Assembly (NCBI RefSeq): GCF_012913485.1
Contig: NZ_CP051774.1
Span: 3,100,001-3,164,000, forward strand
From: Luteolibacter luteus
GTDB lineage: Bacteria; Verrucomicrobiota; Verrucomicrobiia; Verrucomicrobiales; Akkermansiaceae
DNA length: 64,000 bases
Direction of reading: 5' to 3'
Below, piece after piece: positions 5,991 to 52,838 of this stretch; position 1 is the first letter of the stretch, and each line of letters begins with the position of its first letter. The notes beneath the pieces are model-generated. The model did not search any database. It was not told where the DNA came from and saw only the letters and a list, made by a program, of their open reading frames with translations. The position numbers and the translations under genes were made by a program.

Positions 5991-6024
5991 GTGGCGGCAC
6001 CCGTAAGGCGACGGGTGCCGCCAC
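5991..6024. repeat. Perfect 14-bp inverted repeat
   Basis: GTGGCGGCACCCGT (5991-6004), a 6-base loop, then its exact complement (6011-6024). The core GGCGGCA/TGCCGCC recurs in the hairpin after the paralogous gene (7044-7076). It could be a terminator without a T-run or an extragenic repeat. Confidence 0.6.
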
Positions 6025-6051
6025 ACATCCCGCCATGGCAATCATAAAAGT

Positions 6052-6077
6052 GTTATCTACGCGATCACGTAGATAAC
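6052..6077. promoter_or_regulatory. Palindrome upstream of the PEP-CTERM gene
   Basis: GTTATCTACG (6052-6061), loop CGATCA, CGTAGATAAC (6068-6077), a perfect 10-bp arm pair. It lies in an AT-rich patch 80 bases before ATG 6157, so it may be an operator or part of the promoter/leader. No regulator can be assigned. Confidence 0.45.
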
Positions 6078-6156
6078 TATTACTTATTGATGGATAAGGA
6101 TAAAGTTCCGCCGCGATATTGAGGGCTTCGCATTTATCCGGCAGCTTGGGCAGTGC

Positions 6157-7014
6157 ATGAAGTGCTGCCTTCCCCTCCTCTGGGCGTTCATGGCCATTAC
6201 CGGGATAGCCGGTGGCCAGACGCTTATCGATGGTACGAACTATCCGGATCTGTTCGGCGGATCGGATAGCGTGACTGTTACCGCGCCCTCCCTGCCGGAT
6301 GGGACCCTGCTTGGTGTTCATCTTGGGGGATCGGCTACCGGTGAACTCGGCAACCATTGGAATGCCACCGCTACCGGCGGGGCCGTCCTCGGTTCAAATC
6401 TTCCGGATATCCTGGTCACCGTGCCCGAAGAGCGGCTCGCGGAGACCGGTGCTCAAGTGGCCCTCGACGGGACATCGCTCCTGTTCAATATCAATAATTC
6501 TCCTGCCTCCATTCTAGGAAGCCTCGGGGTCGGCCTGAGTCTCGCTCTCAATTGGGATGCGACCGTAACCTTCGATGAGCCGGGTGAAATGCTCGTCCTT
6601 GCTCCCAACACGATCTATCAGGTTAGCTTCGACGTCTACGGGGAGAACGGCTTGTTGGAATCGACCTTGGGCCTGGCTCCATCCTTTGGCCTTCAGTTGC
6701 TAGATGGCGGCAGCGCCGTGGATGCCGCCGCCGGAGGGACCTTGGTGAATATCATCGGTCTCCAGTTGCTTGGCGTGGTGGGCTCTCCGCCGGAGTCCGG
6801 ACGGGCAGTGGTGCAATTTGAAACCGGGAACACCGTTTCAGGAAACGCCGCCGGACTTCGTTTCACCGGATCCGCCTTGGTTCCTGCCACCGCACTGGGC
6901 ATCGGCACGCAATTCGCGTCCGTCTCCAATCTCTCCATCACCCAGATCCCCGAGCCTTCCAGCTTGCTACTGGGTCTTCTGGGTGCAGCCGTCGGCTTCA
7001 AACGTCGCCGCTAG
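6157..7014 (+). CDS. PEP-CTERM sorting-domain exported protein
   Basis: 285 residues. Signal peptide MKCCLPLLWAFMAITG..., a beta-rich domain shared with the neighbouring paralogue at 4630, and a canonical PEP-CTERM tail: PEPSS, hydrophobic segment LLLGLLGAAVG, then KRRR at the very C-terminus. In known systems this tail directs membrane sorting and processing by exosortase, giving extracellular or biofilm-matrix proteins. No exosortase gene is in this window. The specific function is unknown. Confidence 0.85.
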   Translation: MKCCLPLLWAFMAITGIAGGQTLIDGTNYPDLFGGSDSVTVTAPSLPDGTLLGVHLGGSATGELGNHWNATATGGAVLGSNLPDILVTVPEERLAETGAQVALDGTSLLFNINNSPASILGSLGVGLSLALNWDATVTFDEPGEMLVLAPNTIYQVSFDVYGENGLLESTLGLAPSFGLQLLDGGSAVDAAAGGTLVNIIGLQLLGVVGSPPESGRAVVQFETGNTVSGNAAGLRFTGSALVPATALGIGTQFASVSNLSITQIPEPSSLLLGLLGAAVGFKRRR

Positions 7015-7043
7015 TCGCTCCCCCGCACTGCCTGAGACAACGT

Positions 7044-7076
7044 CATGGCGGCATCGTGTTGCGCGGTGCCGCCATG
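7044..7076. terminator. Hairpin between convergent genes
   Basis: CATGGCGGCA (7044-7053) pairs perfectly with TGCCGCCATG (7067-7076). It lies between the PEP-CTERM gene (+) and the Ala-rich gene (-) and could serve both. On the plus strand it is followed by ATTTGTT. Confidence 0.6.
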
Positions 7077-7110
7077 ATTTGTTGCAGGATATCGAAGGAT
7101 GCAGACCAAC

Positions 7111-7470
7111 TCAGGCACTCAGCGGAGGCGGGACCGCCTCGGAAGGGGCCGTCGCGGCGTCTGCCGCCTTTTCTGCCGCCTTTTCTGCCGCCCGCTTGCC
7201 GGCGCATGCACCACGGCGGAGCGTCTCCTTGATGCTCGAAGGGATGAACTCTTTCGCGAAGCATGCGGCGAAGCACGCGCTGAATGCGGCTCCGTAGGCG
7301 AGGTCATGAGCCGCACCGGAGAGTGCCTCTTTCAACTTGGGAGCAGCCTCCCGCGCCATCGAGGACGCATCCGACCGGGCGGACTGGAAAGCTTCGGTGA
7401 AGTTCGTGTAGCGCGGGGCTTCTGGTGCCGCCCCCGCCGTTTCCTGTGTGTGTTCGTTGGAATCGTTCAT
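7111..7470 (-). CDS. Small Ala/Lys-rich protein of unknown function
   Basis: 119 residues from ATG 7470; an upstream in-frame ATG at 7530 would add 20 residues. An N-terminal polar stretch is followed by an amphipathic Ala-rich helix region (FTEAFQSARSDASSMAREAAPKLK). Then comes a short hydrophobic segment with two Cys (AAFSACFAACFA) and a repetitive tail of 'AEKAAEKAADAA' type. It could be membrane-associated or a structural or nucleoid-like protein. No family recognised. Confidence 0.55.
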   Translation of the reverse strand: MNDSNEHTQETAGAAPEAPRYTNFTEAFQSARSDASSMAREAAPKLKEALSGAAHDLAYGAAFSACFAACFAKEFIPSSIKETLRRGACAGKRAAEKAAEKAADAATAPSEAVPPPLSA

Positions 7471-7633
7471 GGTGAAATTCGTGGTTGGACGAGCGTGCGG
7501 ATCATCCTCTTCAGGAAATCTTTCCGCCATGGGAAATCATGGCCCCGATTGGAACCACGTCGAAAATTTTTCAATGGATCTCGAATAATCCCGCGGGGCC
7601 TTCGTCCGATCCGGTGAATCCTGATATAAAATC

Positions 7634-7897
7634 ATGAAGAAAATTCTCGGAATCCTCACCATCGCCCTTGCCACCGTTTTTGCCGCTCCTTCGGCGGATG
7701 CACGTCCTCACCATCGCCCTTCGCGCAGCTACGTTGAGTTCCACCGTTCGTGCCGTGGCCCTGCATGGATCGAGCGCTATGTGGCTTACTATGACTCGTG
7801 CGGTCATCCCGTGTGGCGCACGCGGGTGATCCCGATCCGCCGCCATCATCATCATCATGGTGGCTTCTCGGTCCAATTCGGTGGCGGCTGCCGCTGA
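7634..7897 (+). CDS. Small exported His-rich protein
   Basis: 87 residues. Signal peptide MKKILGILTIALATVFA...DA, then a basic, His- and Tyr-rich mature part with HHRPSRSY, three Cys, a run of five His (RRHHHHHGG) and a Gly-Cys end. The His run suggests transition-metal binding in the periplasm, by inference only. It is monocistronic and followed by a good terminator. Confidence 0.6.
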   Translation: MKKILGILTIALATVFAAPSADARPHHRPSRSYVEFHRSCRGPAWIERYVAYYDSCGHPVWRTRVIPIRRHHHHHGGFSVQFGGGCR

Positions 7898-7927
7898 TCC
7901 TTTCCTTTCGAGCCCGTGGTGACGAAT

Positions 7928-7961
7928 GCCCGGCGACGCCTTCTGGTGTCGCCGGGCTTTT
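7928..7961 (+). terminator. Rho-independent terminator of the His-rich protein gene
   Basis: GCCCGGCGAC (7928-7937) pairs perfectly with GTCGCCGGGC (7948-7957), followed by TTTT. Confidence 0.85.
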
Positions 7962-8279
7962 CACACACACACCTATGATCACCCGCTCGTGCAAACGGGT
8001 GAAGCGATCCGCCCCATGATTTCAAACTTGGACACACCGGGGTGACCTGTCCGCGGTGACATGTCCCGTGTCACCGGTGCAGGCATCAATCCGTCGGGGA
8101 ACTCCACCTTGGCTGCGCCAAGGGCGAGCGCCACCAAACAACCGAAAGCGGGCGCTTTCCCCTTCGGATTGATTCGGTATCGCAATGTCGGCGGTCATGA
8201 CGGCATGCGGCTGGATCGCAGACACTTCATGGGCGTGCTGCGTGAAGCGAAGATGATCGCTGCGTGAAAAAGGCGTTCT
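7962..8279. other. Intergenic region with operator-like repeats, no gene seen
   Basis: About 320 bases. From 8041 two near-identical GGTGACCTGTCC / GGTGACATGTCC units occur about 15 bases apart, and the second opens an inverted repeat GGTGACA...TGTCACC. Further on is AAAGCGGGCGCTTT, a perfect 6-bp-arm hairpin near 8147-8160. Open frames here (for example 8061-8267, +) have no recognisable protein character. Confidence 0.4.
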
Positions 8280-9317
8280 TCAGCCTTGGGAAATCGTTCC
8301 GCGCAGCATCACATCCGGACCGAAGCGTTGGAAACGGACATCGTGCAAGGTGACGCCTTCCCCCAAGCCGCCTCCTGCAAGCGCAGGCACCGGTCCTCCA
8401 TTCACCATCGGGGCCATGAAGGCGACCCATTCGTCGACCAGTTTCGCCTCCATCAGCTCCGCGGCCAATCGCCCGCCGCATTCGACCAGTACCGCGCTCA
8501 CTCCCCGCTCATTCACCAAACGACGCAGGACGATCTCCGGATGATCGCGGTCTTCGATTAAGGTGCGCTCGCGATTGGCATCCGTGAAAAGCGGCGCATC
8601 CATCGGCAGCGAACCGGCATCGCGGGTGAGCACCACTCGCCACGGTTGTGCCCGGTCGGCAGCGAGTTCCGGATCCCGCAGGTCCAGTCTCGGATTGTCA
8701 CGCCGCACCGTTTCTCCGGAAGTCAGGACAGCTTCGCATTCGGCGCGCAGGCGTTGTACTTCGGTACGGGCCACTTCACCGGTCAGCCACATCCCCTCGC
8801 CGGGCGGGCGGGTAATGCGGCCATCCAGGCTCATCGCGGTTTTCAGGATCACCCATGGCAGTCCGCTGCGCTGCACCTTGGTAAAGGCACGGATCAGTTT
8901 TGACGCTTCTTCCGAAAGTACTCCGCGGCTCACGCTGATCCCCGCTTCTTCCAACAGCCTGTCTGCCCGGCCCGCATGCGCGGGATTCGGATCTTCCGCG
9001 GCGTAGATCACGCGGCTCACGCCAGCTTCGATCAGGCCATCGGTGCACGGCGGAGTGCGCCCATGGGTCGAACAGGGTTCGAGCGTGACATAGACGGAGC
9101 TGCCCTTCAGCGCGGCTTCTCCATGGGTGCGCTTCACGGCGGCGATCGCCTCCCGTTCCGCATGCGGTAGTCCTGCACCGCGATGCCACCCGGCACCGAG
9201 TTCGACGCCGTCTTTCACGATCACCGAACCCACCGCGGGGTTCGGCGAGGTACGCCCGATCCCCTTGCTACCTTCCTCGATTGCCCGCCGCATCCAGTGC
9301 GCGTCTTCACCTTGCAT
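8280..9317 (-). CDS. ribD: Bifunctional riboflavin deaminase/reductase RibD
   Basis: 345 residues from ATG 9317. The frame stays open to 9557, but the extra N-terminus has no RibD character and would overlap the divergent gene. The N-terminal deaminase domain has SPNPAVGSV and the zinc-binding set HAERE (H52, E54) and PCSTHGRTPPC (C82, C91). The C-terminal reductase domain (about residues 145-345) begins PWVILKTAMSLDGRI and contains VECGG. It deaminates and then reduces the pyrimidine intermediate of riboflavin synthesis. No other rib gene is adjacent. Confidence 0.93.
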   Translation of the reverse strand: MQGEDAHWMRRAIEEGSKGIGRTSPNPAVGSVIVKDGVELGAGWHRGAGLPHAEREAIAAVKRTHGEAALKGSSVYVTLEPCSTHGRTPPCTDGLIEAGVSRVIYAAEDPNPAHAGRADRLLEEAGISVSRGVLSEEASKLIRAFTKVQRSGLPWVILKTAMSLDGRITRPPGEGMWLTGEVARTEVQRLRAECEAVLTSGETVRRDNPRLDLRDPELAADRAQPWRVVLTRDAGSLPMDAPLFTDANRERTLIEDRDHPEIVLRRLVNERGVSAVLVECGGRLAAELMEAKLVDEWVAFMAPMVNGGPVPALAGGGLGEGVTLHDVRFQRFGPDVMLRGTISQG

Positions 9318-9455
9318 GGACAATGAGAGGCCATTTTTCAGAAATCTGCGCAAGCCCCCTTGATCTCCATTGATGGCGCTGCATGTACGCGCCAACTTCG
9401 GTATAAGTGATAGATCCCCTTCTATCATGCGCTCAAAACCTGCAACCCAACGCTC

Positions 9456-9974
9456 ATGAACAAACTCATCCTCGCATTGGCTCTCCTCGCCTCGCTGCCC
9501 GCCTACGCCGACAAGGCGACAGACATCTATAGGGCAGGCATGATTGCCATGGATCAAGGAAACGTGAAGGCCGCTTCCGACGCCTTTAAGGAAGTCCTGC
9601 GCCTGCAGCCCGGAAACGCCAATGCCCGCTATCAGCTCGCCGAGCTACAGCGGAACCAAGGCTCCGTTGCCGCACGGGCCCGCATCAAGAAGATGGAGGA
9701 GTATCAACTCTCCGAGATCAACTTTGCCAAGCTCGGGCTCTCGGAGTCGCTTGAGGCCCTGACCATGCTTATCGAGAAAAAGTCGGAGGAAAAGTTCTCG
9801 CCGAACTTCATGGTCCAGGATCCGTCCAACAAGCTCGGTGACGCGCAAGTGACGCTCTCGGTGAAGAACGTCCCCGCGAAGGCCGCCCTCGATATGGTCC
9901 TGCAACAGGCAGGCGCCGTCGCAAAATATGAAGAGCACGCCATCGTGATCAAGCCGGTGGCCCGGACAAAGTAG
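9456..9974 (+). CDS. Exported TPR protein with secretin-N-like C-terminus
   Basis: 172 residues. Signal peptide MNKLILALALLASLPAYA. One to two tetratricopeptide units follow at about 20-62 (YRAGMIAMDQGNVKAASDAF). The C-terminal segment (VTLSVKNVPAKAALDMVLQQAGAVAKYEE) resembles the STN/secretin N-domain fold. Probably periplasmic and part of a protein-protein assembly. No partner secretin is in the window. Confidence 0.65.
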   Translation: MNKLILALALLASLPAYADKATDIYRAGMIAMDQGNVKAASDAFKEVLRLQPGNANARYQLAELQRNQGSVAARARIKKMEEYQLSEINFAKLGLSESLEALTMLIEKKSEEKFSPNFMVQDPSNKLGDAQVTLSVKNVPAKAALDMVLQQAGAVAKYEEHAIVIKPVARTK

Positions 9975-9982
9975 CCTGGCCC

Positions 9983-10033
9983 CCCCACGCGATGGGGTAA
10001 GGAGACCCCACGCGATTTGGGGGATCGCCTTTT
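9983..10033 (+). terminator. Repeated CCCCACGCGAT hairpins after the TPR gene
   Basis: CCCCACGCGAT occurs twice (9983-9993 and 10006-10016), each followed by GGGG so each can form a small stem. A CCTTTT stretch follows near 10028. The arrangement suggests a compound terminator before the kinase gene. Confidence 0.4.
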
Positions 10034-10063
10034 GCCGCGGAGGATGTCATTGTCCTCCGCGGC

Positions 10064-11425
10064 ATGGTGCCCGATCTCCGCACGCTCTTCCTCGTCATCG
10101 CGCTTCTCTGCGCGGTGCAGGGATTTGGCATGGTGGTCCTGTGGGCCTTGAACCGCCGAATCCCCGGCATCAGTTCCTGGGCCGCCAGCAATGTGCTCAA
10201 TGCCTTCACCATGGCCCTCCTGCCGCTTCAGGGAGTGGTCGCCAGCACGCTTTGGAATACCGTAATTCCAAACTTATGCGCAGTCGCCGCCGCGGTCCTT
10301 TACTATGCAGGTAGTAGCCAATTCCTCGGGAAAACCGGGTGGCAGCGGAACAGCCTGATCTCGGTCGGCCCTTGGCTTCTATCCTTCTTTTACTATCTTT
10401 ATATTCAGGATAACCTGGCGGCGCGGATCTACTTTGCCTCCGCCTTGCTGATCTTTCTGAATGGCGTCACCGGGGTCATGCTGCTCCGGGAAGCAAAGGG
10501 AGGCATGAGGTTCTCCATGCGCTTCACCGGCGTCATGTTCATCCTCTTCACCGGCATGCTGCTGGTCCGCGCCGTGAAGGTCGCGCAGGACCCGCCGCCG
10601 GCGACCTTGTTCGATGACTCCAGCTTCTCGTGGATGGTCTTCATCGGCGTGGCGATCGCCGCATACTTCCGCAGCTTCGGCACCATCCTGATGATCAACC
10701 AGCGCCAGACGCTTGAGCTTGCCGAGCGCCATGCCGCACAGCTCCGTGCGGAAGAAGCACTGGCCGAAGCCCGGCGCGAGGCCATGGAGCAGCGAGTCCT
10801 CCGCCAACGCCAGGCTCTCGTGCGGGACCTCCACGACGGGATCGGCGGCATCACCGCAAACCTTGCGATGCTTGCGGCTCTCGGCCGCGAGGAGGAAACC
10901 GCCGCGCTCCGCGAGGAAACCCTGCGCCACATCCAGACGATCGCCTTGGAGGGAAACCGGGAGGTGCGGAACCTGATGAACACCTTGGAGAACGGCCGCT
11001 TCCATTGGACCGATTGGGTGGCCGACCTGAAAGACTACGCGGTGAAGGCCACCGAGCCCCACGGCATCGCCACCTCCTTCCAGATCAGGGGCTCTTCCTC
11101 CGATGGCGTGATCTCCGATCCGGCCGCAGCCATCTCGCTCACCCGCGCCGTGAAGGAGGCCATCAACAATCTCGCCCGCCATTCCCAAGCCAAGGAAGCC
11201 AGGATCGAGATGGAGTTCGACAAAGGCTCGCTCTCCATCCTCGTCGCGGACAATGGTCGCGGTATCCCCGCGACTCCTTCGGCTGGCCGCGGTTTGCGGA
11301 ATATGACACGCCGCGCCCAAGAGCTCGGCGGCTCCCTCTCCATCGACGGAAATCAAGGCACCACCTTGAAATTCACTCTCCCTTTACCCCTCAAATACCC
11401 CGACATTGACCTTGTCCCAGCATAA
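10064..11425 (+). CDS. Membrane sensor histidine kinase, NarL/DegS type
   Basis: 453 residues. The N-terminal 220 residues hold about six or seven hydrophobic segments (LFLVIALLCAVQGFGMVVLWAL, LLSFFYYLYI, FTGVMFILFTGMLLV). A short coiled region (ERHAAQLRAEEALAEARREAMEQ) leads into a HisKA_3-type box, VRDLHDGIGG, with the phospho-accepting His at residue 257. The C-terminal ATPase domain carries KEAINNLARHS (N box), DNGRGI (G1) and GRGLRNM. The signal sensed by the membrane part is unknown. The stop overlaps the downstream response regulator by 20 bases, so the two form a pair. Confidence 0.9.
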   Translation: MVPDLRTLFLVIALLCAVQGFGMVVLWALNRRIPGISSWAASNVLNAFTMALLPLQGVVASTLWNTVIPNLCAVAAAVLYYAGSSQFLGKTGWQRNSLISVGPWLLSFFYYLYIQDNLAARIYFASALLIFLNGVTGVMLLREAKGGMRFSMRFTGVMFILFTGMLLVRAVKVAQDPPPATLFDDSSFSWMVFIGVAIAAYFRSFGTILMINQRQTLELAERHAAQLRAEEALAEARREAMEQRVLRQRQALVRDLHDGIGGITANLAMLAALGREEETAALREETLRHIQTIALEGNREVRNLMNTLENGRFHWTDWVADLKDYAVKATEPHGIATSFQIRGSSSDGVISDPAAAISLTRAVKEAINNLARHSQAKEARIEMEFDKGSLSILVADNGRGIPATPSAGRGLRNMTRRAQELGGSLSIDGNQGTTLKFTLPLPLKYPDIDLVPA

Positions 11426-45320: not shown

Positions 45321-45716
45321 ATGAGTCTTTGGCGTCGCGAAGCATCGGAACGACTCCCCGAGCTGCAGAACATCATTGCCTCGCGGCTCGTCGACAGCCC
45401 CATGATGCTCTGGATCGAGCTCAATATTAAATTCGAGAAGCTCAGCAAGAGCCAGCCGCCGCCCATCGATCTCCTCCGGCGGATCTGGCGCTACTGCGAG
45501 TGGTCCCTTCAGCACGGTAGCCCGGAGGTGCAGACCGCTGCAGCCTTGGGCTTCTGCGAGCATTTGATCCAGACCCCGGAGCGCGCGGCCCTGCTTCCTC
45601 AGATCATGAGCTCGGCCGACTACATCGGGCTCAGGAAGCTCATGGAATATCATCACAGTCCTGCCGAGGTCGACGAATGGTCCCGCAAGCTCTGGCCCAA
45701 ACGCATCGGGCGCTAA
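45321..45716 (+). CDS. Small all-alpha protein of unknown function (possibly DUF7674)
   Basis: 131 residues, helical, no signal peptide or Cys cluster (two lone Cys). Strong amphipathic helices (LWIELNIKFEKLSKSQ, LLRRIWRYCEWSLQHGSPEVQTAAALGFCEHLI). It resembles small cytosolic proteins annotated as DUF7674, but that match is from memory of the pattern. It lies between the HMA gene and csoR, so it may be a regulator accessory. Confidence 0.55.
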   Translation: MSLWRREASERLPELQNIIASRLVDSPMMLWIELNIKFEKLSKSQPPPIDLLRRIWRYCEWSLQHGSPEVQTAAALGFCEHLIQTPERAALLPQIMSSADYIGLRKLMEYHHSPAEVDEWSRKLWPKRIGR

Positions 45717-45754
45717 CCGCGAGGAGCGGAAAAATTCCATTTACAAATATACCC

Positions 45755-45771
45755 ATACCCCCTATAGGTAT
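45755..45771. promoter_or_regulatory. Candidate CsoR operator
   Basis: ATACC-CCCTATA-GGTAT, 17 bases, partly palindromic, with a C-tract centre as in CsoR/CstR-type sites. It ends 4 bases before the csoR start, which fits autoregulation. Confidence 0.6.
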
Positions 45772-45775
45772 TTGC

Positions 45776-46051
45776 ATGCAGCGCGGGTGCCACGAAACGA
45801 AGCCTCTTCTCGGCCGGGTAAACCGGATTGTCGGGCAGATGCAGGGAATCGGACGCATGATCGAGGAAAACCGGGAGTGCCCGGAAATCCTGAACACCAT
45901 CTCCGCCATTCACTCCGCGCTGCGCGGCCTTGAGGCGAAGCTGCTCGAAGACCACGTCCGCCATTGCGTCACCGAAGCTGCCACCGATGCGAAGCAGCTT
46001 GACCGCCGCATGGAAGAACTCATCGAGCTCTACAAAAGACGCCTGGCCTGA
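45776..46051 (+). CDS. csoR: CsoR-family copper-sensing repressor
   Basis: 91 residues from ATG 45776; the frame opens at 45677, but upstream residues are not family-like. An all-alpha DUF156 fold ([21 protein letters not shown]). The Cu(I) ligand set is C35 in RECPEIL, and H60 and C64 in LEDHVRHCV, matching the Cys36/His61/Cys65 pattern of CsoR, so copper rather than formaldehyde or sulfur sensing. The copA start is 5 bases downstream. Confidence 0.9.
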
Positions 46052-46056
46052 TAGCC

Positions 46057-48399
<2,343 letters not shown>

Positions 48400-48409
48400 A
48401 TCCGCCACC

Positions 48410-49525
48410 ATGAGTTGCTGTAACAATAAACCGGCATCGTCCTGCTGCAGTCCTGCTCCGGAGACCACGGCTTCCTGCTGTGGCGGACCGGCCGGGCAGG
48501 AAGCTTCCTCCTGCTGCTCGCCATCGTCGAAGGGCAGGGTCGATTGGCTGCTCTGGGGATCCCTCCTGCTCGTTGCCGCGGGGATTGCCGGACACTTCAT
48601 CGGCATGGGGCCCAAGTGGTGGCACACTTTCTCGCATGGCAGTTGGGAATTCATGAGCAAGGCCTGGTGGGGTCTCCTCGCCGGCATCGTTGCGGTCGGT
48701 GTGATCGGCCGCATGCCCCAGGAACTCATCACCGGCCTGCTCGGAAAGAGTGGCAGCTTCAGCGGCATCCTCCGCGCCACCTTCGCAGGGACGCTTCTGG
48801 ATCTCTGCAATCATGGCATCCTCATGGTCGGTGCGCAGCTCTACAGGAAAGGCGCATCCTTGGGGCAGACCCTCGCCTTTCTCGTCGCCAGCCCATGGAA
48901 TTCGCTGTCGCTCACGCTCATCCTCGCCTCCCTGATCGGCTGGAAGTGGATGCTGCTCTTCATCATCCTTTCGATGATGATCGGCGTTCTCACCGGATGG
49001 ATCGCCGACTTGCTGGTGAAGCGGGGCAAGCTGCCCGCGAACCCGAATCATCGCGAGCTTCCCGAAGACTTCCGCTTTGGACCCGCCTTCCGTGAAGGGC
49101 TCTCCCGCGTGAAGCCCACGGGTGAAAACCTGAAGGCCATCGCCAAGGCCGGCATGAGCGAGTCCCGCATGATCCTCCGCTGGATCTTCTTCGGCGTGGT
49201 CCTCGCCGCTGCCATCCGTGCCTTCGTGCCGAATGAAATCTTCTCCCAATACTTCGGCCCCAGCCTGCTCGGCCTCGCGCTCACCCTGGTCGCCACCACC
49301 CTGATCGAAGTCTGCTCGGAAGGCTCCAGCCCGATCGCCGCGGATCTGCTTACCCGCGCAGCGGCTCCGGGAAATGCCTTCACCTTCCTCATGGCCGGTG
49401 CCGCCACCGACTACACCGAGGTCATGGTCTTGCGGGAGACGACGAAGTCTTGGAAGGCCGCGCTCGCCCTGCCGCTAATCACCGTTCCGCAGGTCTTGCT
49501 CGTCGCTTGGTTGTTGAATCGCTAA
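48410..49525 (+). CDS. SO_0444/DUF318-type heavy-metal permease with a Cys-rich N-terminus
   Basis: 371 residues. The first 40 residues contain four CC pairs (3-4, 12-13, 23-24, 35-36) in the pattern 'SCC..P', an apparent metal-binding lead. About eight membrane segments follow (WLLWGSLLLVAAGIAGHFIGM; FMSKAWWGLLAGIVAVGVIG; TLLDLCNHGILMVGAQL; ...). The family (SO_0444/ArsP-like) exports Cu or Zn and similar ions. It starts 10 bases after copA and is probably cotranscribed. Confidence 0.85.
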   Translation: MSCCNNKPASSCCSPAPETTASCCGGPAGQEASSCCSPSSKGRVDWLLWGSLLLVAAGIAGHFIGMGPKWWHTFSHGSWEFMSKAWWGLLAGIVAVGVIGRMPQELITGLLGKSGSFSGILRATFAGTLLDLCNHGILMVGAQLYRKGASLGQTLAFLVASPWNSLSLTLILASLIGWKWMLLFIILSMMIGVLTGWIADLLVKRGKLPANPNHRELPEDFRFGPAFREGLSRVKPTGENLKAIAKAGMSESRMILRWIFFGVVLAAAIRAFVPNEIFSQYFGPSLLGLALTLVATTLIEVCSEGSSPIAADLLTRAAAPGNAFTFLMAGAATDYTEVMVLRETTKSWKAALALPLITVPQVLLVAWLLNR

Positions 49526-49567: not shown

Positions 49568-49930
49568 ATGAATCTTCTCCGCAGCCTCTTGGCCTTGGTC
49601 TTCGCGATCGTCATCGCGAATCCAGCCTGCTGCTGCACGGTCAAGAAGGTGGATGAGCCGGTGAAGACCAGCCACTGCTGTGGCGGGACCAAGCAGGAGA
49701 AAAAGCAGGCTCCCGAGCACTGCCTCTGCGCGGCGAAGAATCCGAAGCTCCAGGAAGATCCGCCGGTGATCCCGGCCTTCACGGCTCTCGAGCTGCCGCC
49801 GATCCTGCCATCGTTCGGGGAGCTGATCGTGCCGGAAGTGCCGGCGCGCGAGGTCGCCGCGGTCGATTTCCATCACGATGCCGGGCCGCCCTTGCGCAGG
49901 CTCGCCTTGCTACAGAGGTTTTTGATTTGA
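49568..49930 (+). CDS. Exported Cys-rich peptide B (CCC motif), paralogue of A
   Basis: 120 residues. Leader MNLLRSLLALVFAIVIANPA runs straight into CCC (21-23), then SHCCGG (37-38), PEHCLCA (C52, C54) and a Pro-rich Cys-free tail, the same design as the 43817 product with little identity in the tail. Leader and Cys spacing are conserved, so the pair is a distinct small family. It lies between the permease and the multicopper oxidase. Confidence 0.7.
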   Translation: MNLLRSLLALVFAIVIANPACCCTVKKVDEPVKTSHCCGGTKQEKKQAPEHCLCAAKNPKLQEDPPVIPAFTALELPPILPSFGELIVPEVPAREVAAVDFHHDAGPPLRRLALLQRFLI

Positions 49931-50099: not shown

Positions 50100-52178
50100 A
50101 TGAAACATTTCCTTCTACTTCTCCTTTTTCTAACAGCCGCTCATGCGCGCATCGTCGAGTATGACCTCGAGGTCGCCGAACAGTCATGGACACCCGGCGG
50201 CAAGGTGAAAGCCGTCCGCGCCCTCACGCTGAATGGCGGCATCCCCGGGCCCACGCTCCGCTTCCGGGAGGGCGATACCGCCCGCATCCGCGTGCATAAT
50301 CGCCTCAAGGGCGAAGAGACTTCCATCCACTGGCACGGCCTCATCTTGCCAAATGCCCAGGATGGGGTCCCGCACGTCACCACCCCTCCGATCAAGCCCG
50401 GTACCACCCACACCTTCGAGTTCCCGCTGGTCCACTCTGGCACCTACTGGTACCACAGCCACACCGGCCTTCAGGAACAAGTCGGCATCTACGGCTCCAT
50501 CGTGATCGAGCCGAAGAACGGCGAGCCGGTCCGCGCGGACCGCGATCACGTCGTCGTGCTTTCCGATTGGACCACCGAGTCACCGGAGGAAGTCATGCGC
50601 ACCCTGATGCGTGGCAGCGATTGGTATGCGCTGAAGAAAGGCAGCATGCAGAGCCTCATCGGTGCGGCGAAGGCCGGAGCCCTGAAGGAATTCTGGGAGC
50701 GCGAGCGCTCGCGCATGCCCGCCATGGATGTCTCCGATGTCGCCTACGATGCCTTCCTCGCCAATGGAAAGCAATCGATCACCCTGCCCGGAAAACCCGG
50801 CGATAAGGTCCGTCTCCGCGTCATCAATGCCGCCGCTTCCACCTACTTCTACCTGCACTCCGCCACCGGTCCGCTGAAGATCGTTGCCGCGGATGGCCCC
50901 GCCGTGGAACCGCTCTCCGTGAACCGCCTGCTGATGGGCATGGCGGAGACTTACGATGTCATCGTGACCATTCCGCCGGGCGGTCAGTGGGAAGTCCGCG
51001 CCACCGCTCAGGATGGCTCGGGCCATGCCTCGATCTTGCTCGGCAGCGGCGAACTCCATTCCCCGGCCGAAATCCCGCGGCCGGACAACTACCGCATGGA
51101 TTCCCATCTCATGGCCGCCATGGACGATATGGATGATGACGACATGCCCGGCATGAAGATGGATGGGGATACCGGCATGAAAATGGATCACCCCAAGATG
51201 AAGATGGCGAAGGCAGGAGAGCCGGAGCGCCCGCTCTCACCTTACTCGAAGCTCCGCTCGCGGGAGTCGACCGCCTTCAAGGCCTCGCTGCCGCGCCGCT
51301 CGATGGAGCTTCGCCTCACCGGAGACATGGAGCGCTACATCTGGTCCTTCAATGGCAAGACCATGGCCGAAGACGGTGTGATCAAGATCAAGAAGGGCGA
51401 GGTCCTTCGCCTCGAGCTCATCAATGACACGATGATGCATCACCCCATCCACCTTCACGGCCACTTCTTCCGCGTGCTGGAAGGGCAGGGGAGTCGCACG
51501 CCCTTGAAGCACACCGTCGATGTGCCGCCCATGGGCAAGCGCACCATCGAGTTCGAGGCGAATGAATACGGCGATTGGCTCTTCCACTGCCACTTGCTCT
51601 ACCACATGCACGCCGGCATGGCGCGGGTCTTCTCCTATGAAGAGCAGGGCCCCGATCACGTCCCGCACATGGGCGAGCACGCGCACGATCCGCTCTACTT
51701 CATGCTCGATGGCTCGCTCCAGAGCCACATGAGCGAGGGAATGCTCACCGTCATGAATTCGCGGAATGACTTCTTCGGTTCGTGGGATGTCGGCTGGGGT
51801 GAAGAGGATGACACCGAGTACGAGATCGATCTCGGCTGGAAGCGCTATTTCAATCCGAACTTCTCCACCGTCCTCGGCTGGCGCTTCACGAATATGGAAG
51901 ATGCCGAGAACCGCGCCTTTGCCGGCGTGGAATACCGGCTGCCCTACCTGATCGGAAGCTCCTTGCAGATCGACAGCGAGGGCGATGCCCGCATCGGCCT
52001 TTCGAAGGCACTCCAGATCACCGACCGCCTCGGCGTCTTCGCCGGCGTGGAATACGACACCAACACCGAATGGGAGTGGACGCTCGGAGCTGACTACATC
52101 CTCACCAAGCAATTCTCCCTGATCACCCAGTACCACTCCGAGCACGGCTTCGGCGGTGGCTTCAGTTTCCGGTTCTAA
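50100..52178 (+). CDS. Multicopper oxidase fused to a C-terminal outer-membrane barrel
   Basis: 692 residues from ATG 50100, which gives a plain Sec signal (MKHFLLLLLFLTAAHA) without the twin-arginine motif usual in CopA-type oxidases. Cupredoxin domains with the copper sites HWHG (77-80), WYHSH (117-121), HPIHLHG (448-454) and HCHLLYHMHAGM (496-507). A Met/Asp-rich loop (about 333-369, GMKMDGDTGMKM) sits where PcoA/CopA oxidases carry copper-binding Met repeats. Residues about 555-692 are alternating strands ending in FSFRF, like the CopB outer-membrane barrel. It probably oxidises Cu(I) at the outer membrane. Confidence 0.85.
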   Translation: MKHFLLLLLFLTAAHARIVEYDLEVAEQSWTPGGKVKAVRALTLNGGIPGPTLRFREGDTARIRVHNRLKGEETSIHWHGLILPNAQDGVPHVTTPPIKPGTTHTFEFPLVHSGTYWYHSHTGLQEQVGIYGSIVIEPKNGEPVRADRDHVVVLSDWTTESPEEVMRTLMRGSDWYALKKGSMQSLIGAAKAGALKEFWERERSRMPAMDVSDVAYDAFLANGKQSITLPGKPGDKVRLRVINAAASTYFYLHSATGPLKIVAADGPAVEPLSVNRLLMGMAETYDVIVTIPPGGQWEVRATAQDGSGHASILLGSGELHSPAEIPRPDNYRMDSHLMAAMDDMDDDDMPGMKMDGDTGMKMDHPKMKMAKAGEPERPLSPYSKLRSRESTAFKASLPRRSMELRLTGDMERYIWSFNGKTMAEDGVIKIKKGEVLRLELINDTMMHHPIHLHGHFFRVLEGQGSRTPLKHTVDVPPMGKRTIEFEANEYGDWLFHCHLLYHMHAGMARVFSYEEQGPDHVPHMGEHAHDPLYFMLDGSLQSHMSEGMLTVMNSRNDFFGSWDVGWGEEDDTEYEIDLGWKRYFNPNFSTVLGWRFTNMEDAENRAFAGVEYRLPYLIGSSLQIDSEGDARIGLSKALQITDRLGVFAGVEYDTNTEWEWTLGADYILTKQFSLITQYHSEHGFGGGFSFRF

Positions 52179-52214: not shown

Positions 52215-52460
52215 ATGATGAAAACGACCATTACTCTTCTCACCACCATCTTCCTCGCCTCCTGCGCCGCCACCGCCAGCAGCTCGGCAGCCACGAAGCC
52301 GTACACCAAAAGCACCTGCGCGGTGACCGACAACAAGCTCGGCTCCATGGGCTCGCCCGTCACCAAGGTCTACGACGGCCAGGAAGTGAAATTCTGCTGC
52401 AAGCCCTGCGTGGCAAAATTCGAGAAGAACCCTCGGAAATACCTCGCGAAGATCCGCTAA
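52215..52460 (+). CDS. Small YHS-like lipoprotein with a CCxxC motif, copy 1
   Basis: 81 residues. Lipobox LASC (C17). The mature part has STCAVT (C35), VYDGQEVKFCCKPC (C61, C62, C65) and KFEKNPRKYL, matching the next gene's product residue for residue in these motifs. The YHS/TRASH-like pattern indicates Cu(I) or other soft-metal binding at the membrane surface. It is 36 bases downstream of the oxidase. Confidence 0.78.
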   Translation: MMKTTITLLTTIFLASCAATASSSAATKPYTKSTCAVTDNKLGSMGSPVTKVYDGQEVKFCCKPCVAKFEKNPRKYLAKIR

Positions 52461-52523: not shown

Positions 52524-52838
52524 ATGAAATCCACGCTTCTTTTTCTCATCTCGTTCGGACTCCTCTCCTGTGCCACCAAGGCACCTGGCTCCACTGCCGC
52601 TGCCGCTGCCGACACGAAGGCGGATACCAGAAAGGTCGCCAAGAAAGTTTCCGCCAAGCCGAAGGCCTATCCGCTCAAAACCTGTCTCGTCACCGGAGAT
52701 GGCCTCGATGACATGGACGAGCGGGTTTCCACCGTCTACGAAGGCCAGACCTTCGAGTTCTGCTGCAAGCCCTGCCTGAAGAAGTTCAACAAGAACCCGG
52801 GCAAATACGTGGAGGAACTCAAGAAAGCCCAGCAGTGA
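52524..52838 (+). CDS. Small YHS-like lipoprotein with a CCxxC motif, copy 2
   Basis: 104 residues. Lipobox LLSC (C16). A longer Lys/Ala linker precedes KTCLVTGDG (C54) and FEFCCKPC (C80, C81, C84) and KFNKNPGKYV. A tandem duplicate of the upstream gene with a diverged linker. Probable metal-binding lipoprotein at the end of the copper island. Confidence 0.78.
   Translation: MKSTLLFLISFGLLSCATKAPGSTAAAAADTKADTRKVAKKVSAKPKAYPLKTCLVTGDGLDDMDERVSTVYEGQTFEFCCKPCLKKFNKNPGKYVEELKKAQQ

Follow-up and report, generated by a model that had tools for sequence, protein, structure and literature searches.

The 64,000-nt stretch of Luteolibacter luteus DNA analysed here (NZ_CP051774.1, 3,100,001–3,164,000; hereafter the window, in which all positions are counted) carries at 50100..52178 an open reading frame (ORF) of 692 codons plus stop, in which a CopA/PcoA-type multicopper oxidase is joined to a CopB-like outer-membrane barrel. 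We consider it likely that nature has here combined the PcoA/PcoB (CopA/CopB) pair into one piece, exported by the general secretory (Sec) pathway, inserted by the β-barrel assembly machinery (BAM), and holding a periplasmic oxidase docked at a CopB-like pore. The original prediction, that of an outer-membrane-anchored copper oxidase with a Sec rather than a twin-arginine translocation (Tat) signal, is supported in its overall interpretation, with changes to the orientation of the oxidase, the reach of the export argument and the novelty of the architecture. All window features described below lie on the plus strand.

An oxidase and a CopB-like barrel in one chain

The fused gene was delineated from its ORF, Pfam matches and AlphaFold2 models. 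It opens with a Sec-like signal peptide of about 16 residues (50100..50147; cleavage site placed by eye), MKHFLLLLLFLTAAHA, in which motif reading confirms the absence of a twin arginine; the leaders of fused homologues are similar. The three-domain oxidase follows (residues 17–515, 50148..51644), with the Pfam domains Cu-oxidase_3, Cu-oxidase and Cu-oxidase_2 covering residues 25–515. All four predicted copper motifs between residues 77 and 507 were confirmed: HWHG (residues 77–80, 50328..50339), HSH (119–121, 50454..50462), HPIHLHGH (448–455, 51441..51464; ligands His 448, 451 and 453) and HCHLLYHMHAGM (496–507, 51585..51620; ligands 496, 497, 498, 502 and 507). The set of copper ligands is complete (12/12), and every ligand position is invariant across an alignment of 68 full-length fused proteins selected among the collected loci. 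The predicted Met/Asp-rich loop is also real (about residues 340–371, 51117..51212; model confidence low at 348–361) but variable, its region holding between 1 and 31 Met in the 68 homologues. A short His-containing linker (516–532, 51645..51695) leads into a 12-stranded barrel with an aromatic FRF end (533–692, 51696..52175), which thus begins at residue 533 and not at about 555 as first proposed.

Folded at full length on the 68-sequence alignment, the protein gave a mean predicted local distance difference test score (pLDDT) of 91.8 and a predicted template modelling score (pTM) of 0.90, with 12 strands at residues 533–691; the tail folded alone again gave 12 strands (pLDDT 95.6). The solved PcoB barrel is likewise 12-stranded (PMC9210255). 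The 50 matches listed by Foldseek for the full-length model are oxidases throughout, and a search with the barrel ranked PcoB first (7PGE, E 7.6e-6). When the Foldseek matches were re-scored with VIA-align, 7PGE reached Z 16.4 over 161 of 162 residues, followed by OMPLA at Z 14.9. At the level of sequence profiles, hhalign aligned the 68 fused tails with six plasmid CopBs over 115 columns (probability 96.8, E 2.9e-10).

The specificity of this relationship was examined in reverse, with a hidden Markov model (HMM) of the 68 fused barrels searched at E 0.01 against 5191 ORFs from the collected loci. The 127 matches comprised 114 fused-like ORFs (longer than 600 residues or above 60 bits) and 13 of 15 stand-alone CopBs, those of L124 and L125 (L numbers denote collected loci) being missed. 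Among 470 ORFs from 14 further Bacteroidota loci, 14 matched, all of them CopB genes, so that overall the profile found 27 of 29 stand-alone CopBs; in the 5661 ORFs scanned, it matched nothing else that stands alone. In the window's own genome, the next-best place scored E 0.157. Positions G593, P615, G685 and G687 of the barrel are invariant in all 68 homologues, and the C-terminal residue is F, Y or W in 104 of 105 fused proteins; barrel-assembly signals usually terminate in an aromatic residue.

Because Foldseek, VIA-align, hhalign and the reverse profile agree, the barrel is taken as CopB-type and, as judged from sequence profiles and the modelled fold, is homologous to PcoB/CopB. A soluble or spurious tail is rejected on the AlphaFold2 barrel models and the structural matches to 7PGE; a soluble C-terminus was one of two outcomes named beforehand as refuting the prediction. 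A generic outer-membrane barrel unrelated to CopB was rejected since the reverse profile singles out CopB. Nor is the fusion an assembly or gene-calling artefact of a single genome, since the architecture recurs in 105 ORFs at 104 loci (102 distinct sequences, the window's included). This set is what remains of 114 query-matching ORFs after nine were dropped: L056 and L098 (both lacking a start that could be used), L021, L111, two pieces each of L033 and L099, and an additional, partial ORF at L100.

The orientation of the barrel can be judged from its loops. Across the 68 homologues, the five even-to-odd turns are 2–4 residues long, and four of them show a standard deviation of 0. Of the six odd-to-even loops, in contrast, two are of constant length and one extends to at most 7 residues, while the other three have maxima of 19, 34 and 22. 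Outer-membrane barrels carry their long, variable loops on the extracellular side. As the variable loops lie solely opposite the termini, both termini and the oxidase would be on the periplasmic side; the loop lengths argue for this placement and against an oxidase facing the cell surface, and the predicted outer-membrane-anchored oxidase is accordingly qualified as one that faces the periplasm. The linker has a median length of 23 residues in the homologues, counted from residue 514, and the AlphaFold2 secondary structure places a single helix in that of the window protein (H525–528); a pore-spanning helix was not seen there. His makes up 6.5% of the homologues' linkers and 3.8% of residues overall, with at least two His in 32 of 68, an enrichment too modest to stand in for the N-terminal region of PcoB and not used as evidence.

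Fused and split forms and their export signals

The search proposed for the same architecture in Verrucomicrobiota gave matches in 39 of 387 genomes (E 1e-30), of which, as judged from the listed ranges, 30 extend into the barrel and nine stop short of it; one of the 30 has both forms and one of the nine holds a distant oxidase without CopB. Close homologues keep the C-terminal part, so that the second outcome named as refuting the prediction did not occur either. In Bacteroidota, the phylum of locus L065 (Algoriphagus), 72 of 296 genomes matched at E 1e-100: 48 over oxidase and barrel, 21 ending near the oxidase end and three partially. In both sampled phyla the searches thus returned the fused form in more genomes than the split form (30 versus 9 and 48 versus 21), with fused-protein queries that favour fused matches. 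The view that CopA and CopB are normally separate holds for the well-studied proteobacterial systems and needs correcting to this extent. A search for the CopB family, which is independent of fused queries, exceeded the cut-off in just 8 of 374 Verrucomicrobiota genomes, and two weaker matches lay inside fused genes.

A GTDB-wide scan used peptides of the fused protein as queries, again favouring fused matches, and nearly all of the best 80 of 303 loci cover the whole query. Fused records come from at least eight phyla (Verrucomicrobiota, Bacteroidota, Thermodesulfobacteriota, Nitrospirota, Planctomycetota, Myxococcota, Caldifarciminota and Bdellovibrionota), and since many of these records are metagenome bins, a phylum represented by just one of them is less certain. 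A partly masked Dependentiae record (L102) is also among the matches, and a fused gene is found on a Fusobacteriota plasmid (Ilyobacter).

Split CopAs have an adjoining copB at all nine Verrucomicrobiota loci examined (L121–L129) and at all 14 Bacteroidota loci examined (L133–L146, which are 14 of the 24 Bacteroidota places ending near the oxidase end; the copB of L136 lies in two ORFs). Six of the first 15 split loci are plasmid regions picked for an annotated or matched copB, and are therefore uninformative on the frequency of copB next to copA. L130 (genome G052), a distant oxidase of 474 residues that lacks CopB, was excluded from the split counts and served as outgroup in a quick tree alone. 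Stand-alone CopB was not found in the window's genome (E up to 10) or in any of five other fused-bearing genomes searched (E up to 0.001).

In genome G372 (L129, 2528–9134), about 1.6 kb separates a fused gene from a split copA-copB pair of the Tat type, a natural side-by-side comparison. Locus L045 has two different fused genes in tandem (6001–8007 and 8581–10851), which the tree places apart within the fused clade, the second being only 45% identical to the window protein. The fused copies of L021, L099 and L033 are interrupted by a stop or spread over two ORFs, so that either the gene is sometimes lost or these assemblies are faulty.

A maximum-likelihood tree of the oxidase domains alone (58 rows, 486 columns) places the 37 fused proteins on one side of a branch and the 20 split ones on the other, with supports of 100/100 and 100/99; all 200 bootstrap trees (100%) show this division. 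A quick tree built earlier from 67 rows agrees, with weaker support on the fused side (85). One fusion or one fission would explain the sampled tree, which is unrooted. A 958-residue oxidase-CopB fusion on a Legionella fallonii plasmid (L147, 2477–5353) joins the tree on the branch between the two groups, a place that is unsure because its branch is long; its barrel is nearer to the split-CopB profile (E 2.8e-27) than to the profile of the window's family (E 5.1e-8). This fusion may be independent or early.

Signal types were assigned by motif reading, and the heuristic used to choose starts is biased towards hydrophobic leaders. A Tat signal peptide has been described for PcoA (PMC7558416), and a twin-arginine leader was found in 26 of 29 split CopAs (12/15 in the first set, 14/14 in the Bacteroidota set), in 24 of them in the RRxF form; the Tat motif is missing in L115, L120 and L127. 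Among the 105 fused proteins, adjacent arginines precede the hydrophobic stretch in five (L013, L015, L044, L063 and L091), and RRxF occurs only in L013, a borderline case with its arginines at residues 2–3 of a GTG or later start. When the frames were read from stop to stop, which brings in untranslated letters ahead of the start, RRxF was present in 2/105 fused proteins (L013 and the second gene of L045, where it lies upstream of the chosen start) versus 24/29 split ones; the less telling pattern of RR followed by any hydrophobic stretch gave 23/105 versus 24/29.

The original prediction had reasoned that the protein must reach the outer membrane unfolded for barrel insertion, and that copper would therefore be loaded outside the cytoplasm. 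The export contrast fits and supports this logic, by which Tat could not carry the barrel folded and copper would be loaded in the periplasm. It amounts in essence to one comparison between two clades and, given a single fusion change on the tree, the link between barrel and export route is consistent with fusion forcing the use of Sec but does not prove it. The split CopAs without a Tat motif indicate that a switch from Tat is possible without fusion.

Directly after the signal peptide, a subset of fused homologues (L007, L009, L012, L013, L019, L046 and L052) carries a CxxC motif (for example ACDDCK or ACEECGG) that is absent from the window protein; it possibly serves metal binding or includes a lipid-attachment cysteine.

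A proposed mechanism and its rivals

In the mechanism that we propose, Sec would export the fused protein unfolded, and the BAM machinery would insert its C-terminal 160 residues as a barrel of 12 strands whose two ends lie in the periplasm. The N-terminal oxidase would fold and acquire copper in the periplasm, and the linker of about 17 residues would hold it where the barrel opens to the periplasm. At this site it would most likely use oxygen to convert Cu(I), supplied by the cluster's P-type ATPase, to Cu(II), which could cross the outer membrane via the adjoining CopB-like pore. Computation shows the fused architecture, a barrel homologous to CopB, conserved copper sites, a leader without Tat motif and asymmetric loops; we infer that Sec and BAM are used, that copper is loaded in the periplasm, that Cu(I) is the substrate and that the pore conducts, as well as the direction in which it does so. 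The gene cluster, with its metal repressor, P1B ATPase, permease and YHS proteins, also speaks for this reading. In Caulobacter, the N-terminal region of PcoB stabilises PcoA and has been proposed as its docking site (PMC12509749), an arrangement that fusion would make permanent.

Several results weigh against this reading. The PF05275 CopB model, the check proposed with the original prediction, scores the window protein at 16.0 bits, below the Pfam cut-off of 27 and, for the isolated C-terminus, behind the similarly sub-threshold OMP_b-brl (17.8) and DUF481 (16.7); at E 0.01, Pfam CopB matches just 21 of the 68 barrels, which is nevertheless as many as any family does. Scans of the C-terminus alone against NCBIfam and Pfam gave no family above its cut-off, phmmer against the PDB returned OmpK36 alone (E 0.15), and the top match of a PDB hmmsearch is a designed barrel, with 7PGE second (E 0.0034). 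Such scores are insufficient by themselves, and it is the fold and profile tests that settle the assignment. The barrel is also shorter than the solved PcoB chain (162 versus 198 residues). The export contrast has its borderline exception and depends on motif reading, which slightly lowers our confidence. The direction of transport by PcoB is itself disputed, with uptake (PMC9210255) and efflux (PMC12509749) both put forward, and reports of localisation, activity or transport for fused members were not found in open-licence PubMed Central papers, the literature covered here. Finally, a conserved pore residue was not found: the position aligned by hhalign with PcoB E187 (numbering offset inferred) is Gly in the window protein and acidic in just 23 of 68 homologues, so that residue conservation does not support conduction by the same path.

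This last result keeps alive the reading that the barrel is an anchor alone, holding the oxidase at the outer membrane with copper conduction lost. The short barrel points the same way, as does the fact that the long His/Met-rich N-terminal region of PcoB, critical for function and copper efflux in a 2025 study (PMC12509749), has no counterpart here beyond the short linker. However, the barrel has been kept across at least eight phyla with its four invariant positions, and a lipoprotein leader could presumably anchor the enzyme as easily; we regard a pure anchor as possible but somewhat doubtful. The substrate may also differ. PcoA-type oxidases have been proposed to oxidise Fe(II) too (PMC5566968), and if Fe(II), phenols or siderophores were the main substrate then copper tolerance would be a side effect. 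The Met-rich loop and the copper-type gene cluster favour copper, neither decisively, and we hold a main substrate other than Cu(I) to be unlikely.

An oxidase displayed on the cell surface after threading through its own 12-stranded barrel appears very improbable. In classical autotransporters too, an N-terminal passenger precedes a C-terminal barrel of 12 strands, and several of them are among the VIA-align matches (3qq2, Z 13.3; 3kvn, Z 11.6). Yet PcoB ranks first structurally, the sequence profiles single out CopB, the linker is short with its modelled helix limited to four residues, and the split counterpart PcoA is described as periplasmic (PMC7558416, PMC9210255). Returning to the one-piece pair, its most elaborate form would be a single-chain device that oxidises and ejects, channelling Cu(I) oxidation and Cu(II) exit without periplasmic release; in Verrucomicrobiota the adjacent YHS copper protein would load the oxidase after Sec export, and the fused proteins would form an old clade of at least eight phyla that replaces a Tat-exported two-gene system. 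We offer this composite only tentatively, and as a whole it is less probable than not by a good way.

Neighbouring genes and comparison with known systems

The fused gene lies in a cluster of metal-related genes. Upstream are a CsoR/FrmR-type metal-sensing repressor (45677..46051; PF02583, 86.4 bits), a P1B-type metal ATPase with HMBD motifs (46057..48399; PF00122, and PF19335 in two stretches) and an ArsP_1-family permease (48410..49525; PF03773, 117.9 bits) with a sub-threshold likeness to SO_0444-type Cu/Zn efflux proteins (NF033936, 101.1 bits, cut-off 300). Homologues of the ATPase (E 1e-5, fragments counted) occur in the flanks of 41 of the 104 fused loci, the flanks being of unequal length. 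Just upstream of the fused gene, 49568..49930 encodes a small Cys-rich protein with a hydrophobic leader and the motifs CCCT, HCCGG and HCLCA, for which Pfam and NCBIfam gave no family; its homologues are present at nine of the 104 loci, the window's own counted.

Directly downstream is a YHS/TRASH-domain protein with a lipobox-like LASC (52215..52460; PF04945, 30.0 bits, cut-off 30.3), followed by a second small YHS/TRASH-domain protein (52524..52838; PF04945, 35.2 bits). Of the 105 fused genes, 38 are followed by a YHS-domain gene within 1.5 kb; for six of the 105, less than 400 bases of downstream sequence were available. These followers are found in 37 of 50 Verrucomicrobiota and Planctomycetota cases and one unclassified bin, and in none of 43 from Bacteroidota; a loose pattern detects a lipobox in 18 of the 38. 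We infer that the YHS protein is possibly a dedicated copper partner, as donor or acceptor.

The architecture is less novel than was first thought. A fused PcoA-PcoB of Legionella was noted in print in 2012, in brief (PMC3548706), and a 2024 account of an oxidase from Bizionia argentinensis, termed a putative periplasm oxidase, describes a signal peptide of 19 residues and a C-terminus that is porin-like, 'with some similarity to PcoB' (PMC11213822); this protein probably belongs to the same clade as that of the window. In a survey of outer-membrane families published in 2016, CopB proteins, Bacteroidetes included, average 424 ± 265 residues (PMC4827864), a spread that hints at fused members, unstated in the passage concerned. 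We did not find the fused form treated as a family in open-licence PubMed Central papers, nor a description there of the breadth of the fusion, its clean split from the two-gene systems, the Tat/Sec contrast or the downstream YHS gene. The outer-membrane half has been overlooked because records are named by the oxidase domain alone ('multicopper oxidase domain-containing protein').

It is disputed whether PcoA and PcoB form a working unit, and in which direction PcoB moves copper (PMC9210255, PMC12509749). A widespread natural fusion strongly suggests that the two parts act together at the outer membrane, and it provides a single chain in which oxidation and transport could be measured together. 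The near-complete export contrast is of interest in its own right: an enzyme that is usually exported folded must here, on our reading, pass the inner membrane in an unfolded state and receive its copper on the far side.

Compared with known systems, the fused protein resembles PcoA/CopA (TIGR01480, its best NCBIfam match) in its three-domain oxidase, full copper ligands and Met-rich loop, and its oxidase part, 65% of the query, is about 42% identical to plasmid PcoA; it differs in lacking the Tat motif and carrying the barrel. It scores 430.4 bits against the TIGR01480 cut-off of 478.95, and three other fused members score 413.5–427.1, whereas three tested split CopAs exceed the cut-off at 727.3–995.1. 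The Legionella fusion of the 2012 report likewise has a CopA-type oxidase and a CopB-type barrel in one frame; the passages on it and on the Bizionia oxidase are brief mentions, without family-wide or export analysis (PMC3548706, PMC11213822). The likeness to PcoB/CopB (PF05275, 7PGE) lies in the 12-stranded barrel, the top structural match, the significant profile-profile match and the aromatic C-terminus, but PcoB/CopB is encoded by a separate gene and has a long, disordered His/Met-rich N-terminal region, and the fused barrel has neither. As it falls below the cut-offs of both TIGR01480 and PF05275, we call the protein a fused relative of CopA and CopB.

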